64,000 bases of DNA from Aureimonas sp. Leaf324 (lineage in GTDB: Bacteria > Pseudomonadota > Alphaproteobacteria > Rhizobiales > Rhizobiaceae). Of the stretch, positions 23,013 to 29,486 are shown one piece after another. The notes beneath the pieces are model-generated. The model was given only the letters and a program-made list of their open reading frames with translations, ran no database searches and had not been told where the DNA came from. Position numbers and translations under genes: made by a program. The first letter of the stretch is position 1; each line of letters begins with the position of its first letter. The stretch covers positions 645,679-709,678 of the forward strand of contig NZ_LMOH01000012.1 of NCBI RefSeq assembly GCF_001423245.1, read 5' to 3'.

Positions 23013-25511
23013 CTATCGGGCGAGCAGGCGAAGAAGTTGCGCCGCCAGCTGGGCCTGACTGTAGGGCTTGCCGAGGCGCGGAAGATCGAGGCGCTCGTCC
23101 GCCGGCATCTCGGCATTGCCGGTGGCGAGGAGGATCGGCAGGCCGGGATGGCGGTCGAGCGCGGCCCTGGCAAGCTCCGCCCCGTTCATGCGGGGCATCG
23201 CGAAATCCGTGATCATCAGGTCGAACGGGCCGTAGCGGGACAGGATGTCGAGCGCTTCGGCGCCGGAAGCCGCCTCCGACACGTCGTGGCCGAGGTCGCG
23301 CAGCATGTCCACGGTGCTCATGGAGATCAGCATGTCGTCGTCCACGACGAGGATGCGCGCCGGCGCGGCCTCGCTCGAACCGACGATGATCGGCTCCGGC
23401 GCGGCGACCACGATGGGGGCGGCCCCGTCACCTGCGCAAGGAAGCCAGAGTTCGGCGCGCGTGCCCTTTCCCGGCTCGCTGGAAAGCCGCAGCGCTCCGC
23501 GAAGCTGGATCGCCAGCCCGTGGATCATCGACAGCCCCAGCCCCGTACCCTTGCCGACACCCTTGGTCGAGAAGAACGGCTCGGTCGCCTTCTTCAGCGT
23601 TTCCGCGTCCATTCCCTCGCCCGTGTCGGCGAGGGTCACGCGAATGTAGTCTCCGGGCACCAGATCGCCGTCGCCCGCGGCCCGATCGACCGCAAGCGTC
23701 AGCTGCCCGCCGTTCGGCATCGCGTCGCGCGCGTTGACGGCCAGATTCAGGATCGCAAGCTCCAGCTGGTTGGCATCGACCAGCGCGACCGGCGCCTTGT
23801 CGGGCAAGGCAAGCTGCAGTTCGATGGCGCTGCCGATCGACTGCTCGAGAAGGTCCACCATGCCCCGGACGAGGTCCGACAGGTCTCGGGGCTCGACCGA
23901 CAGATCCTGGCGCCGAGCGAAGGCGAGGAGTCGCTGCGTCAGCGCCGCGCCGCGCTGCGCGCCCATCACCGCGCCGTCGATGAGCCGGGCGGTGCGCGGA
24001 TCGTCGGGCAGGTGCTTGCGCAGGAGTTCGAGATTGCCGAGGACCGCCATCAGCAGGTTGTTGAAATCGTGGGCGACGCCGCCGGTCAGCTGGCCGATCG
24101 CTTCCATCTTCTGGCTCTGGCGCAGCGCGTTCTGCGCCTCGACCAGTTCCGCCTCCTGGCGAAGCCGATCGGTCACGTCTGTAACGAACTGGTAGCAGCC
24201 GATTAGCGCGCCCTCGGCGTCATGGAGCGGACGGAACTTCACCTCGTAGTACGGCCGCACACGGCTGGGATCACCGAATTTCTCGATGAAGGTGATGGTC
24301 TCTCCGGCGAGCCCGCGGCTCCATCCCGCGCGCACCTCGGCCTGCTGCTCCGGGCGGTCGGCGAGGAGCGCCAGCATGTTGTCGCCCGCCTTCGGCTTCA
24401 TGCCGAACACGCGCTCGAACTCGTCGGCATTGGCCGCGTTCAGCGCGAGGATGTTGTAGTCGAGGTCGACCGCCATCACCATCACGTCGGTGTTCTCGAC
24501 GATCGCGCCCAGAAGGTTGCGCTCGGCCGTTCGCTCGGCAACCCGTTCCTCAAGCGTCGCGTTCAGCTGGCGCAGCCCTTCTTCGGCAAGCCGTCGATCG
24601 TGGATGTCGACCGACGCCCCGAACCAGCGGGTGATCGTGCCGGTGTGCCGGTCGCGATAGGAATGGGCGCGGTCCAGGAACCAGCGGTATTCGCCCGATT
24701 TCGAGCGGATGCGATGCTCGGAGAGGTGCGGCTCGTCGCGATCGCGCGCCGTCTGGAACGCCTCCACGACCAGCGGCGCGTCCTCCGGGTGGATGAAGGC
24801 GCCGGCGATCTCGCCCGGTGACATCGAGCGAAAACCCGCGCCGGTGTACTCGGAGAACTGGCGGCTGAGGAATTCCATCTGGCCGTTTGCATCTGCGATC
24901 CAGATGATCTGCGGAACCGTGTCGACCATCAGGCGGAACTCGGCCTCGCTGTCCTTCAAAGTCGTCTCGGCCGTGTCCCGCTGCCGCTCCGCCAGAACAC
25001 GGTCGGTTGTATCCGTCACGACGCAGAGGACGCCGGCCGACGCGTCGCCCTCGTCCGCGACCGGGGAACAGCTGAGATCGACGAAGATTTGCTGCGTCTC
25101 GCCATCGCGCGGAAACGTCAGTTCCCGCGCCTGCTCCTCGAACGTCCCACCGGCCAGAACAGCGGTCATCGTCTCCACGTCGAGGCCGAACGCATCGAAC
25201 CGGCCATCACGGGCGCTCTCGCCGAAGAGACCGGGATGACGATCGCCGGCCAGCACCGAAAACGCATCGTTGTAGAGTGCCCGCCCCTCCGGCCCCCAGA
25301 AGAGCACCATAGGAACGGGCGAGCGCAGCACGATCGACAGCGAGGCGCGCAGGAGCGAGGTCCACGCGGCATCGTCGGCCAGCTCCGTCCCGCGCCAGTC
25401 GTGCGAGGCGATCAAGGTTCCGCATGCGCCGCCACCCCTGGCGAGCTGTTGCAGAAAGACCTTTTCGACGGCAGCAGGCAAAAACAGATCCTCGTCCCGG
25501 CACGGAATCAC
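23013..25511 (-). CDS. PAS-domain hybrid sensor histidine kinase with C-terminal receiver
   Basis: An 832-residue kinase with no transmembrane helix, hence cytoplasmic. Order: PAS-like domain (about 55-175), PAS-PAC (190-310, FIHPEDAP and YRWFLDRA), coiled coil, third PAS (335-450), HisKA with phospho-His481 ([11 protein letters not shown]), HATPase with N-box [12 protein letters not shown]1 DTGEGM and G2 GKGTGLGL, and a receiver with phosphoacceptor Asp769 (LMITDFAMP) and the acidic cluster VVDDD. The start is GTG at 25511. No LOV Cys motif is visible, so the signal is not obviously light. It points away from the PAS-LuxR gene; the two may exchange signal, but the LuxR protein has no receiver domain. 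Downstream is the GntR gene. Confidence 0.92.
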
Positions 25512-25566
25512 CCGAGCCTCCAGGTTCCTGTCTAGGATCTCCCGCAGGGTCCGTCATGATCAAGCT

Positions 25567-25573
25567 GCATCAG
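25567..25573. promoter_or_regulatory. GCATCAG half-site upstream of the kinase
   Basis: The left half of the recurrent palindrome lies 56 bases before the kinase GTG. The right half (CGCGCAA) does not match CTGATGC, so this is at best a weak or accidental site. Confidence 0.25.
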
Positions 25574-25716
25574 TTGCCCGCGCAAGCGGCCGGAATTCGT
25601 CGCTTTTCCATCGGAAACTGCGCCCGGATGCCCCTCCCGAACATATCTCGGCGCGGCGGCCGATGTCGGACGCAGCGCCCAGCCCGTTCGATCCCGCGGC
25701 CCAGATCGCGCCGACT

Positions 25717-25735
25717 GCATCAGTCGGCCTGATGC
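25717..25735. promoter_or_regulatory. Palindrome GCATCAG-N5-CTGATGC, copy 1
   Basis: A perfect 7-bp inverted repeat with 5-bp spacer, extended by GAC/GTC at the outside. It lies 154 bp before the RMF-like start and about 205 bp before the divergent kinase start. Identical halves and spacing recur at 28712-28730 and, with one mismatch, at 27778-27796. A dimeric regulator encoded nearby, such as the PAS-LuxR protein, is the obvious candidate (inference). Confidence 0.7.
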
Positions 25736-25889
25736 GGTCGGCTCTAGCGCGGGGATGGCTCGAGTCTACCTGAGAGCCACGGTCGGCGCACGGTGCGACG
25801 GCCGTCAGCGACCGGATCGACGCCCGACCGTGGGCCAATCGTCCGGCAAGCGTCCGGCGGAAAGCGGACGCCCACGGAGATCGAGACCC

Positions 25890-26123
25890 ATGACATCCAT
25901 TCCCTCGCCCGAACGCAAGGAAGCGGTGAACGCCGGAGCCATGGCGGCGAGGGACGGCGTCCATCGAAGCGAGAACCCGCACCCGGTCGACAGCGAGACC
26001 TGGAGCAACTGGATGGACGGCTTCGATCACCAGACCGCGTGGCTCCAGAACGGGCGCGGCGTCTACGATCCGTTCGCGGCAAACGTTTCGTCGCCGCTCG
26101 AAGGCTCCCTGCCCGCCGATTGA
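25890..26123 (+). CDS. Small RMF/CrpP-like protein (ribosome modulation factor family pattern)
   Basis: A 77-residue protein whose middle follows the RMF/CrpP pattern: A...G..AA..G....NP followed by a Trp, a G-[YF] and a second Trp (AVNAGAMAARDG...SENPHP...WSNWMDGF....AW). Members include ribosome hibernation factor RMF and small Rhizobiales homologues. ATG at 25890 is preceded by CGGAGA; the frame is open upstream but without family character. The C-terminal tail (FAANVSSPLEGSLPAD) is extra. Flanked by a sensor kinase and a PAS-LuxR regulator, with a shared palindrome upstream, it is probably a stress-induced protein. Ribosome binding itself is not shown by sequence. Confidence 0.7.
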   Translation: MTSIPSPERKEAVNAGAMAARDGVHRSENPHPVDSETWSNWMDGFDHQTAWLQNGRGVYDPFAANVSSPLEGSLPAD

Positions 26124-26224
26124 TGGCGCCGGCGCGCCACCCAAGCCCTTGCCCGAGCGGCCCCGTCGCACAACCTTTTCCCGTCGACGCAACGTCGAAC
26201 GCGACCCGGCTGCCTGCCCCCGAG

Positions 26225-27739
26225 ATGGAACGCTTCATGAGTCCCCCCTCCAGCGGACAACGTATCGAACGCCAGCAGCTGCAGCAGATCATCGCCGGCC
26301 TGACCGAGGGCGTCATCCTGATCGATCCCGATCAGACGATCGCCTGGGCGAACACGGCGGCCCTCTCGATGCACGGGGCGCGCGAGTTGGCCGATCTCGG
26401 GCGGACCGTGGACGAGTATCGCGAGCGCTTCCAGCTGCGCTACCGCAACCATCATCGTCTCGACGACGGCACTTATCCGGCGGATCGCGTGGTGGCGGGC
26501 GAGCTCTTCACCGACGTCATGGTCGAGGTCGCGCGCCACGGCGAGACGGAACCCGAATGGGTCCACCGCGTGCGCAGCCTTGTCCTCAACGACGCCAACG
26601 GCGACCCGGACTGCCTCGTCCTGATCGTCACCGACGCCACGGACGAGATGCAGGCGATCGAGCGCTTCGAGCGCGCCTTCAACGCCAATCCCGCCCCCGC
26701 CCTGATCTGCCGCGTCAGCGACCTTCGGTTCATCCGCGTGAACCAGGGCTTCCTCGACATGACGGGCTACACGCGCGAGGCCATCGTCGGGCGCTCGGTC
26801 TACGATCTCGACGTGATGGCCGGCGCGGAGCGGCGCGAGCTCGGCAAGGCGCGCCTGTCGGAATGGGCGACGGTGCCGCAGATGGAGGCGTCGCTGCCGC
26901 TGCCGGAAGGCGAGACCAAGCTCGTCATCGTCGCCGGACAGCCGATCGAGATCGGGGACGAGCGCTGCATGCTCTTCACCTTCGCCGACCTCGAGCCGCG
27001 CCGGAAGGCCGAGACGGCACTGCGCAACAGCGAGGAGAAGTTCGCCAAGACGTTCCGCCTCGCGCCCGTGCCGATGAAGGTCTGCACCATCGACGGCTTC
27101 CGCATCATCGACGTCAACGAGGCCTTCCTCAAGGAGACCGGCTGGGCGATCGAGGAGGTCGTCGGGCGCAGCGCCGCCGAGATCGAGTTGTGGGACACGG
27201 CGACGACGCGACGGCGCATGGAGAGCGAGCTCGTCGAGACCGGCGGCTTCCGCGGCTACGAGGCCAAGCTCAAGAAGAAGGACGGCTCGACCGCCGACTG
27301 CCTCGTCTCGGCCGAGACGATCCGCATCGGCGGCGAGACCTGCGTCCTCGACGTGTTCCAGGACATCACCGCCCGCAAGACGTCCGAACTCGAGCTGGTC
27401 CGGGCCATCGAGGAGGCGCTCGCCGACACGTCCTGGCTCAGCCGGAGCGTGATGGAAAAGCTTGCCGACATGCGCTCGCCGCAGCCCGACGGCGCTCGAC
27501 GCCCGAGCGGCGCCGACCTCACCGAAAAGGAACGGCAGGTGCTCGGGCTGATCTCCCAGGGGCTCGACGACGGCGAGATCGCCAAGCTCCTCTTCCTGTC
27601 GCGCAACACAGTGCGGAACCATGTCCAGCGCATCTATGCCAAGACCGGCGTCCACCGCCGGGGCGAGGCGATCGTCTGGGCGCGCGAGCGCGGGATCGTC
27701 GGATCCCAGCCGCCGGCCAAGAGACCGCGAAAGACCTGA
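26225..27739 (+). CDS. PAS-PAS-PAS-LuxR transcriptional regulator
   Basis: A 504-residue cytoplasmic regulator: three PAS domains (about residues 18-135, 145-260 and 270-390, the last ending VLDVFQDITARK) and a C-terminal LuxR helix-turn-helix (about 430-490; LTEKERQVLGLISQGLDDGEIAKLL..SRNTVRNHV). There is no receiver or kinase domain, so signal input should be by ligand, redox or oxygen sensing through PAS. Two start codons are possible, ATG 26225 or ATG 26237; neither has a strong ribosome site. It is flanked on both sides by the GCATCAG palindrome and is the prime candidate for binding it. Confidence 0.9.
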   Translation: MERFMSPPSSGQRIERQQLQQIIAGLTEGVILIDPDQTIAWANTAALSMHGARELADLGRTVDEYRERFQLRYRNHHRLDDGTYPADRVVAGELFTDVMVEVARHGETEPEWVHRVRSLVLNDANGDPDCLVLIVTDATDEMQAIERFERAFNANPAPALICRVSDLRFIRVNQGFLDMTGYTREAIVGRSVYDLDVMAGAERRELGKARLSEWATVPQMEASLPLPEGETKLVIVAGQPIEIGDERCMLFTFADLEPRRKAETALRNSEEKFAKTFRLAPVPMKVCTIDGFRIIDVNEAFLKETGWAIEEVVGRSAAEIELWDTATTRRRMESELVETGGFRGYEAKLKKKDGSTADCLVSAETIRIGGETCVLDVFQDITARKTSELELVRAIEEALADTSWLSRSVMEKLADMRSPQPDGARRPSGADLTEKERQVLGLISQGLDDGEIAKLLFLSRNTVRNHVQRIYAKTGVHRRGEAIVWARERGIVGSQPPAKRPRKT

Positions 27740-27777
27740 TCGCCAAAGATCGTTTTGCGCGCAATAAAGTTATGTCT

Positions 27778-27796
27778 GCATCAGTCGAACTGGTGC
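27778..27796. promoter_or_regulatory. Palindrome GCATCAG-N5-CTGGTGC, copy 2, before aqpZ
   Basis: Same half-site and 5-bp spacer as copies 1 and 3 with one mismatch in the right half. A -10-like TAATCT at 27819-27824 without a good -35 lies just downstream; the palindrome centre would then sit about 44 bases before the start of transcription, the position expected of a class II activator (inference). aqpZ starts 124 bases downstream. Confidence 0.6.
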
Positions 27797-27920
27797 AGCT
27801 GCGACTTATTTGGGTGGCTAATCTCCTAGCTTCGACGGGGATTGAACGCGGCAGCGGCCGAAGACCGGCCTGCCGTCGATACCATGGCCCCACACTGCCC
27901 GCGGGCAGGTCAGAGACAGG

Positions 27921-28658
27921 ATGGCATTCATGTTCAGAAAGCTCGCCGCCGAAGCTTTCGGCACCTTCTGGCTGGTCTTCGGAGGGTGCGGAAGCGCCGT
28001 TCTCGCCGCAAGCTTCCCGGAGCTCGGCATCGGTTTCACCGGCGTCGCGCTGGCCTTCGGCCTGACGGTTCTCACCATGGCCTACACCGTCGGCGGCATC
28101 TCCGGCGGCCATTTCAACCCGGCGGTCTCGCTCGGCCTCGCCATCTCGGGCCGCTTCTCGTGGAACCAGCTCGGCCCCTACTGGCTGGCGCAGGTGATCG
28201 GCGGCATTCTCGGCGCCGCGGTCCTCTACGCGATCGCCACCGGCAAGGCCGACTTCACGGCCGGCGCCTTCGCGTCCAACGGCTACGGCGCGAACTCGCC
28301 GGGCGGCTACGGCCTCGGGTCGGCCTTCCTGATCGAGTTCGTCCTCACCGCCGGCTTCCTCGTCATCATCCTCGGATCGACGGCCACCGCCGCGTCCGGC
28401 AGCTTCGCGCCGATCGCGATCGGCCTCGGCCTGACGCTCATCCACCTCATCTCGATCCCGGTCACCAACACGTCGGTCAACCCGGCGCGTTCGCTGGCCG
28501 TCGCGTTCTTCGCCGAGACCGGCGCGCTCGGGCAGGTCTGGCTGTTCTGGGTCGCGCCGCTGGCCGGCGCCGTAGCGGGTGCCCTGATCTGGCGACACAT
28601 CCTGTCGCCGGGCGAATCGACGCGCGGCATCGGCGCCGACGACCAGCGCGCGCCCTGA
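27921..28658 (+). CDS. aqpZ: Aquaporin Z-type water channel
   Basis: A 245-residue membrane protein with six transmembrane helices and the two pore-forming NPA motifs, HFNPAV (first half) and SVNPARS (second half). Length, the N-terminal [21 protein letters not shown] and the second-NPA context match bacterial AqpZ, which conducts water across the inner membrane. ATG at 27921 is in the usual position; a ribosome-like AGGAT is close upstream. It carries the cluster palindrome in its promoter region, which suggests osmotic or stress control together with the CsbD-like gene. Confidence 0.95.
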
Positions 28659-28711
28659 GGCGGGCTGCATAACCGGGAAAGCGCGGATGCAGGCGGTCAC
28701 CAAGGTCGCCT

Positions 28712-28730
28712 GCATCAGCCGCCCTGATGC
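28712..28730. promoter_or_regulatory. Palindrome GCATCAG-N5-CTGATGC, copy 3, before the csbD-like gene
   Basis: A perfect 7-bp inverted repeat with a 5-bp spacer, identical in both halves to copy 1. It lies 53 bases after the aqpZ stop and 98 bases before the CsbD-like start, so the latter has its own controlled promoter rather than being only an aqpZ co-transcript. Confidence 0.7.
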
Positions 28731-28828
28731 CCGGGACACTTGGGTGCGAGGGTCCGTCCCTCCATGTTGAAACCACGGGCGGCTTCGCTGGGCGACGCCG
28801 CCCCCAGCCCGAAGCAGAGGAGAACGGG

Positions 28829-29011
28829 ATGGGAGAGAAGATCGATCAGGCGGCCAAGAAGGCAGCGCTCGGATCCGTCAAGGAGGCGCTCGGCAAGGTG
28901 ATCGGCAACGAGCGTGTCGAGGCCGAGGGCGCCGCCGAGAAGGCGGCCGGAAAGGCGGAAGGGCGCAAGAAGGACACCTCGTCCGTCGACGGAAAGTCCG
29001 GCCACTCGTGA
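28829..29011 (+). CDS. CsbD-like small stress protein
   Basis: A 60-residue, Lys/Glu/Ala-rich, hydrophilic protein of the CsbD family (KIDQAAKKA.GS.KEALGK..GN...EAEGAAEKAAGKAEG). These are small general-stress proteins of unknown mechanism. ATG at 28829 is preceded by an AGAGGAGA ribosome site; an in-frame longer reading from 28727 is not family-like and would run over the palindrome. The three charged A-x-G-K-A-E segments are the family's internal repeats. Preceded by aqpZ and followed by the DUF2934 gene. Confidence 0.85.
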   Translation: MGEKIDQAAKKAALGSVKEALGKVIGNERVEAEGAAEKAAGKAEGRKKDTSSVDGKSGHS

Positions 29012-29084: not shown

Positions 29085-29486
29085 ATGCTGAAGCTCTTTC
29101 GCAAGGATGGTGACATCGTCACCCTCTGCGCCGTTCCGGACACCGCCGACCTGCCGGACTTTCTGTCGGGCGACGGGTGGGCGGACGCGGGCCGGACCGC
29201 GGACATCGCGGAGCAGTTGCCAGAGCCCGACCGGGCGACTCATCGCGCGGTGCTCTCCGAAACCGGCTTCTACCTTTTTTCGCCCGCGCAGACTGTCGAC
29301 CTGGAGGACGACAGCCACGTCGACCTCGAACCGCTCGTCAAGGAGCGGGCCTATTTCCTGTGGGAAGCGGCCGGCTGTCCGCTCGGACGCGAGCACGAGT
29401 TCTGGGCCGCCGCCTCGCGCGAGATCGAAGCCGACGTCCGGGCGCGCCTCGATCGCCGACACGCCGGGCGGCACATCGCGCGATGA
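29085..29486 (+). CDS. Protein with C-terminal DUF2934-like domain
   Basis: A 133-residue soluble protein. The C-terminal part (about residues 85-115) has the DUF2934 pattern: RAYFLWEAAGCPLGREHEFWAAASREIE (key positions Y-x-x-W-E-x-x-G-x-P-x-G-x-x-x-E-x-W-x-x-A). The N-terminal part is acidic and unrecognised. ATG 29085 has a GGGGTGGA ribosome site. No function is known for the domain; it is common in Rhizobiales and often near stress genes, consistent with the CsbD-like and aquaporin genes upstream. Confidence 0.72.
   Translation: MLKLFRKDGDIVTLCAVPDTADLPDFLSGDGWADAGRTADIAEQLPEPDRATHRAVLSETGFYLFSPAQTVDLEDDSHVDLEPLVKERAYFLWEAAGCPLGREHEFWAAASREIEADVRARLDRRHAGRHIAR

Follow-up and report, generated by a model that had tools for sequence, protein, structure and literature searches.

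A palindrome shared by candidate stress promoters beside a PAS-LuxR regulator gene of Aureimonas sp. Leaf324

The PAS-LuxR locus and its palindromes

The window analysed here is a stretch of 64,000 nucleotides from Aureimonas sp. Leaf324 (contig NZ_LMOH01000012.1), in which an initial annotation had noticed the palindrome GCATCAG-N5-CTGATGC in front of putative stress genes grouped around the gene of a LuxR-type regulator with PAS domains. Pattern matching recovered the two perfect copies and the one-mismatch copy at the positions first reported, and these are referred to below as putative operators 1 to 3. Operator 1 (25717-25735, plus strand; GCATCAG-TCGGC-CTGATGC) lies before a small Rmf/CrpP-like gene with the regulator gene behind it, and on its divergent side stands a hybrid kinase gene. 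Operator 2 (27778-27796, plus strand; GCATCAG-TCGAA-CTGGTGC) carries the mismatch and precedes aqpZ, while operator 3 (28712-28730, plus strand; GCATCAG-CCGCC-CTGATGC), which is conserved more widely than the other two, precedes a csbD-like gene. In the profile search described below, operators 1 and 2 scored E values of 4.9e-7 and 3.4e-6, respectively.

The regulator (26237-27739, plus strand; 500 amino acids) is the proposed binder of the palindrome. Its Pfam scan returned PAS families, in a PAS-PAS-PAS-LuxR arrangement, and a C-terminal helix-turn-helix (HTH) of the GerE family (53.2 bits), with no match to Response_reg or to an autoinducer-binding domain. The protein thus has the make-up of the PAS-LuxR one-component class, that is, PAS plus a C-terminal GerE HTH and no receiver. 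Its AlphaFold model had a mean predicted local distance difference test (pLDDT) score of 77 and a predicted template modelling (pTM) score of 0.41, so the domain arrangement in the model is not reliable. Among the genes following the palindromes, the identity of aqpZ (aquaporin Z; 27921-28658, plus strand) is secure, with an NCBIfam NF003838 score of 354 bits that passes the equivalog cut-off of 256. The csbD-like gene (28829-29011, plus strand; 60 amino acids) scored 38.0 bits with Pfam CsbD (E 1.5e-9; gathering cut-off 40), and the Rmf/CrpP-like gene (25890-26123, plus strand; 77 amino acids) was named from sub-threshold family matches.

The palindrome is confined to the regulator locus in its own genome

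In the whole genome of Leaf324 (4,415,253 bases in 30 contigs) the palindrome occurred with at most one mismatch only at the three places named above, all of them inside 3 kb and beside the PAS-LuxR gene; the scan proposed with the initial annotation thus found no scattering over the genome. The exact pattern TGCATCAG-N5-CTGATGC was present in just one of the 101 genomes of a family sample, which is Leaf324 itself. As a background at the same stringency, 20 Mb of Markov sequence held 3 places, and 21 genomes of the genus (about 93 Mb) held 26, of which 11 were assigned to the regulator locus or to aqpZ and 15 remain. On the grounds of genome uniqueness and of both backgrounds, a chance origin of three copies in 3 kb was rejected. 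The signal is lost when the pattern is relaxed. Leaf324 has 19 further places with two mismatches, the reversed control pattern has 8 at up to two, and Markov sequence predicts about 24 at two, so that a genome-wide excess is absent at this level. Within the window, a search at up to three mismatches gave 5 matches against a mean of 4.06 in shuffled sequence, and there is nothing special at such laxity; besides the three copies it added only two three-mismatch ones, in keeping with the earlier observation that the window has no further full copy.

Sites are conserved beside close orthologues of the regulator

A search for homologues of the regulator yielded 33 loci. Orthologues with 74-97% identity (loci L016-L026 and L029), here called group A, were found in Aureimonas, Aurantimonas sp. 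Leaf443, Fulvimarina, Antarcticirhabdus and metagenome-assembled genomes (MAGs). A site with 0 to 3 mismatches preceded csbD in all 11 other group-A loci that reach this gene, including those where aqpZ is absent or lies elsewhere. Eight of the 12 loci (window included) had such a site before the Rmf-like gene or before a membrane-protein gene preceding it. Within the Aurantimonadaceae the palindrome co-occurs with these PAS-LuxR orthologues and is kept beside them, as had been asked of related genomes.

The aqpZ gene provided a case outside the locus. In genomes G107 and G115, aqpZ and the regulator are on different contigs, and aqpZ is still preceded by the site, which begins 108 bp (G107, 1 mismatch) and 102 bp (G115, 0 mismatches) before the aligned aqpZ start; G115 is a draft with both contig ends near, which shows that its aqpZ is not adjacent to the regulator but leaves the distance between them not established. 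No site was found upstream of aqpZ copies of about 60% identity (G105, G125 and the second copy of G120) in the upstream scans, which covered the loci other than L124 and L125. G107 has in addition a perfect site on contig C10 (L107:3266-3800) with no gene behind it. Decayed aqpZ fragments follow this site (a stretch of 74 bp at 83.8% identity and further weak fragments in order), and it may be explained as the fossil promoter of a decayed aqpZ, a second, site-bearing aqpZ being intact on another contig. In A. phyllosphaerae, aqpZ (L016:5685-6420) matched in two pieces in different frames, through a frameshift that is either genuine or an assembly error.

An alignment of 20 sites, ungapped over 43 columns, served to build a sequence-only model, R1, with which 25 genomes were searched, the best 150 candidates or fewer being scored in each. 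In the 10 genomes that have a group-A regulator, 25 distinct sites reached E<0.01; of these, 22 belonged to the regulator locus, 2 to a separate aqpZ and one to the decayed aqpZ relic. Apart from aqpZ and the relic, no further target elsewhere in the group-A genomes reached E<0.01 among the candidates scored; G121:C21:106603, with an E value of 0.0125, stayed above this cut-off. The 15 genomes without a group-A regulator, 4 of which have a more distant one (group B, see below), gave a single match, in G105. This match is a perfect copy of the palindrome (G105:C4:102922-102940; L106:2923-2941); it lies within a predicted coding frame of a genome that lacks the regulator and is probably due to chance.

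Paralogues away from the regulator lack the site

Stress control in the Alphaproteobacteria is commonly told as the work of EcfG, PhyR and NepR, and paralogues of the locus genes were compared for both the palindrome and EcfG-like promoters (GGAAC-N15-18-[CG][GA]TT, found 105-125 bp before the aligned csbD start). There were 48 csbD matches in the 25 genomes, and the 30 with loci were examined; the other 18 include those that adjoin the group-B regulators in G110 and G112, which were read separately. All 10 copies linked to a group-A regulator had the site (0, 0, 0, 0, 1, 1, 2, 2, 2 and 3 mismatches) and none had an EcfG-like promoter. Among the 20 other copies, which are partly orthologous to one another and hence not independent events, none had the site (4 mismatches at best) and 16 had an EcfG-like promoter. 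The second csbD of Leaf324 itself (L219, G000:C25:175964) belongs to the latter kind, with the promoter GGAAC-N16-CGTT, and this promoter was absent from the 22 anchored palindrome sites checked. EcfG control of the regulator-linked genes was accordingly rejected, since its promoters were sought and none were found at those 22 sites or at the 10 linked csbD copies.

The membrane-protein gene behaved similarly (30 of 32 matches examined). When linked to a group-A regulator it had the site in 4 of 5 cases (1-2 mismatches), the one without being in G123, whereas it was absent, at up to three mismatches, from the 25 other copies, of which two adjoin a group-B regulator. EcfG-like matches were rare at this gene (2/30). 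The protein belongs to a family of 300 amino acids (NKVSWGAIFAGV...) that is found repeatedly next to the regulator and CsbD in the Aurantimonadaceae and at some loci of the Acetobacteraceae (for example L022:2930-3829, L023:2838-3740, L018, L024 and L104); the two members scanned had no Pfam or NCBIfam match above cut-off.

Linkage, the separate aqpZ genes and these paralogue controls together give good comparative support to the central proposal of the initial annotation, one PAS-LuxR regulator with a common site before stress genes. Its description as a local regulon holds for the linkage to the locus and fails if taken as purely local, given the site-bearing aqpZ genes on other contigs of G107 and G115.

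The palindrome appears to be part of a longer promoter element

For position-wise conservation, 23 sites were anchored on the palindrome, its first base being position 0. Upstream, A-14 to A-10, G-9 and A-8 were each conserved in 13 to 20 of the 23 sites. Downstream, C27 and T28 were invariant (23/23 each), followed by G23 (21/23), T54 (18/23), A51 (15/23), and T26 and A63 (14/23 each), and few positions beyond the element were conserved. This pattern suggests that the site is embedded in a longer promoter element made of an A-rich AAAGAA block, the operator, a -35-like TCT and a -10-like box, the last at a near-constant distance of about 30-33 nucleotides after the palindrome (TATCTT, CATCTT, CATGTT or TACCTG). 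Transcription would then start near position 62-63, and the centre of the operator would lie near -53. Because the AAGA and TCTT blocks lie symmetrically on either side of the palindrome centre, they may also be outer protein contacts. Applied to the window, all on the plus strand, the alignment predicts at operator 1 a promoter spanning 25743-25772 (TCT at 25743-25745, -10-like TACCTG at 25767-25772), a -10-like TAGCTT at 27827-27832 for aqpZ and a -10-like CATGTT at 28763-28768 for csbD. The initial annotation had put the site centre at about 44 bases ahead of a predicted aqpZ start. As a start codon this did not hold, the likely start at 27921 being kept in homologues and putting the centre about 134 bp upstream; read as a transcription start it comes closer, although the 23-site alignment points to a -10 box lying 8 bp more downstream, and thus to a centre at about -53.

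Neighbouring genes and the half-site

The surroundings of the regulator are variably kept. Among the other group-A loci that extend far enough, the Rmf-like gene lies upstream of the regulator in 9 of 11, and a DUF2934 gene (29085-29486, plus strand; Pfam 50.9 bits), possibly co-transcribed with csbD, lies behind csbD in 9 of 11. The divergent hybrid histidine kinase (23013-25511, minus strand; PAS, HisKA, HATPase and receiver domains in Pfam) was seen in 3 of the 12 group-A loci, namely the window and its two closest relatives, and the Pfam scan also placed a GntR-type gene near the PAS-LuxR locus. The half-site GCATCAG reported on the kinase side is indeed present (25567-25573), within a block (25552-25575, TCATGATCAA.CTGCATCA) that is conserved in an alignment of the three genomes having the divergent kinase, the half-site itself being intact in two of them. 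Towards the kinase, a conserved TAGACA follows about 32 nucleotides past the half-site, a spacing near that of the -10 boxes of the full sites.

Diverged orthologues in group B and in the Acetobacteraceae

The group-B regulators have 48-60% identity, and their recognition helix differs in G112 and G116. In G112 a different palindrome, AACCAG-GTCAA-CTGGTT, lies between the regulator and csbD (L101:5240-5620), possibly representing a natural switch of specificity, and a degenerate version of it precedes the membrane-protein gene of G116.

Orthologues are rare further afield. A survey of a class sample, scoring the best 4 or fewer candidates per genome, found them in 3 of 385 genomes, Leaf324 included. 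In the Acetobacteraceae 10 of 120 genomes had an orthologue (E<=1e-60), at 12 loci, 8 of them with a CsbD-like match. Four of the 12 matched GCAYYAG-N5-CTRRTGC (up to 2 mismatches) directly downstream of the regulator, a count that is partly circular as this degenerate consensus was drawn from these same sites. Only one of the four, GCATCAG-TTCAG-CTGGTGC at L178 (G178), beside an orthologue of 55% identity, also matched the original pattern with one mismatch; GCACTAG-CACGC-CTAGTGC (L186), GCACTAG-TCGGG-TTGATGC (L184) and GCACTAT-GCGTC-GTAGTGC (L177) are weaker cases. In the 10 Acetobacteraceae genomes (about 43 Mb) the degenerate consensus occurred exactly twice, both times beside the regulator (the L178 and L186 sites), against 8 occurrences of the reversed control. 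No site was found upstream of aqpZ at up to three mismatches of this consensus in the 4 Acetobacteraceae loci checked. G256 has a two-mismatch match to it upstream of the regulator. At L179 (1501-3327; G125, Lichenicoccus roseus) the regulator frame continues in-frame into a CsbD-like stretch, possibly a PAS-LuxR-CsbD fusion, or else a csbD gene with no obvious start.

Interpretation and alternative explanations

We consider it highly probable that the 500-amino-acid protein is a one-component PAS-LuxR activator governing a micro-regulon of one to three live promoters per genome, parallel to EcfG. Its three PAS domains would sense a signal, its C-terminal LuxR/NarL-type HTH would bind the 19-bp palindrome as a dimer and, from a centre near -53, it would switch on sigma-70-type promoters. 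The targets would be csbD, aqpZ and the Rmf-like gene, with the 300-amino-acid membrane-protein gene added in relatives, and probable read-through from the Rmf-like gene would activate the regulator's own gene. Such a set would form a separate stress branch alongside the EcfG general stress response and would own a csbD copy; the aquaporin and CsbD would fit a role in water or osmotic stress. We infer binding, activation, operon structure, autoregulation and the role in stress from comparative sequence evidence.

Several observations weigh against this reading. The predicted -10 boxes are weak. Of the 25 sites recovered by the model R1, 19 had served to train it, the six untrained ones being three in the close relative G109 together with G107:C10:376255, G107:C15:436217 and G120:C1:596258. 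The aqpZ and csbD sites of Leaf443 carry three mismatches each. Four of the 12 group-A loci (L019, L021, L024 and L025) have no site before the Rmf-like or membrane-protein gene, which weakens the autoregulatory step. The small gene itself falls short of the curated cut-offs for Rmf/CrpP membership, with 23.3 bits for NCBIfam NF041886 (cut-off 28) and 15.7 bits for Pfam RMF PF04957 (cut-off 27.9), so that of the ribosome hibernation first proposed for it there stands a small gene that is found and kept, with its identity below threshold and its upstream site missing at those four loci. Among the diverged orthologues, G110 has csbD next to the regulator but shows no palindrome of this kind; both csbD and site are missing at G113 and at the second copy of G111; in G527, CsbD-like and membrane-protein matches accompany both copies, while the degenerate consensus is matched there only with three mismatches; and 8 of the 12 Acetobacteraceae loci have no match to it at up to two mismatches between the regulator and the next gene.

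The regulator might act on its sites as a repressor, or as a switch between activation and repression, which we regard as unlikely. One-component PAS regulators can do either, the palindrome is near the promoter and an overlap of the invariant CT with the -35 region is possible; the palindrome nevertheless ends upstream of the presumed -35 and -10 elements, and the weak -10 boxes are such as would be expected at activated promoters. That another transcription factor binds the palindrome, the PAS-LuxR gene being merely one target, is more improbable still. Other dimeric factors may have the same site geometry, the hybrid kinase and the GntR-type gene are close by, and the site is often missing at distant PAS-LuxR orthologues. 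However, the site is kept beside the regulator at loci without kinase and GntR matches, genomes without a group-A regulator had no site at the examined csbD and membrane-protein copies and only one of 15 gave a profile match at E<0.01, and in G112 the site and the recognition helix differ together.

At L024 and L025 the arms extend into a long hairpin ending in TTCT, and many copies come after the stop codon of the regulator, as if the repeat acted as RNA or as structured DNA, whether a terminator or a palindromic repeat element. This was rejected for most of the listed sites, where the 6 bases outside the core are unpaired as judged by eye; moreover, operator 1 lies between divergent genes and a repeat element would be genome-wide, which the palindrome is not, making such a role very improbable. 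Conservation through mere shared ancestry of a syntenic block is hardly credible. A. phyllosphaerae and a MAG are indeed close relatives with similar flanks, but outside the element the 23 sites share few conserved positions, the site accompanies aqpZ onto other contigs, contradicting a synteny-only explanation, and the one-mismatch copy recurs beside the 55%-identical Acetobacteraceae orthologue.

Beyond the micro-regulon of a PAS-LuxR activator, we tentatively entertain a wider and rather doubtful possibility. It would be an old, rarely kept stress switch common to the Aurantimonadaceae and Acetobacteraceae, a triple-PAS LuxR activator with one to three promoters per genome, whose operator code (GCAYYAG-N5-CTRRTGC and relatives) drifts with the regulator, whose unusually long symmetric element measures about 40 bp end to end across the AAGA and TCTT blocks, and which controls private copies of stress genes whose sisters obey EcfG. 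Its odds are lowered by the several distant orthologues without a related site.

Comparison with known systems

Among the matches listed in a literature search, we recognised no system with this gene set and site. PpsR/CrtJ was the top Foldseek match of the regulator model (4hh2), through the PAS array and with TM-scores of just 0.2-0.3; PpsR has a different type of HTH and a different operator. The GerE-family HTH is common to the NarL/FixJ response regulators, and VpsT, NarL and DevR were the top sequence matches in the PDB, but that type has an N-terminal receiver, which the Aureimonas regulator lacks. It is likewise set apart from the LuxR solos of quorum sensing, whose autoinducer-binding domain has no Pfam match in it. 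EL222, a light-oxygen-voltage (LOV)-HTH protein, shares the one-component sensor-HTH plan, and the profile matched its HTH in the PDB (8a5r). It is labelled there as light-activated, and the Aureimonas protein differs in having three PAS domains. LOV domains carry a motif with a reactive cysteine, of the type NCRFLQ, and none was seen in the regulator translation when read by eye, which would place the protein outside the LOV-HTH class. The Streptomyces PAS-LuxR proteins PimM and PteF combine a PAS sensor and a C-terminal LuxR HTH with an operator palindrome that lies in the -35 region and has the form CTVGGGAWWTCCCBAG for the PimM type (PMC9774167). The Aureimonas protein differs in having three PAS domains, the operator GCATCAG-N5-CTGATGC and stress instead of antibiotic genes; the element at its 23 promoters differs from CTVGGGAWWTCCCBAG, for which the genome was not scanned, and sets it outside the PimM-type subfamily. 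The Aureimonas regulator thus resembles the Streptomyces PAS-LuxR and LOV-HTH proteins and is, by operator or by sensor motif, no member of either subfamily.

In Sphingopyxis granuli, csbD is reported to be a direct target of EcfG (PMC7083833). Most of the other csbD copies have an EcfG-like promoter in agreement with this general stress response, whereas the regulator-linked csbD has the palindrome instead. The csbD genes are split inside the same genomes: one copy has an EcfG-like promoter, and another adjoins a dedicated PAS-LuxR regulator whose putative operator is nearly unique in the genome. This makes the locus a test system for the origin of a private stress branch, for the change of a LuxR-type operator together with its regulator, and for sensing by a triple-PAS protein.

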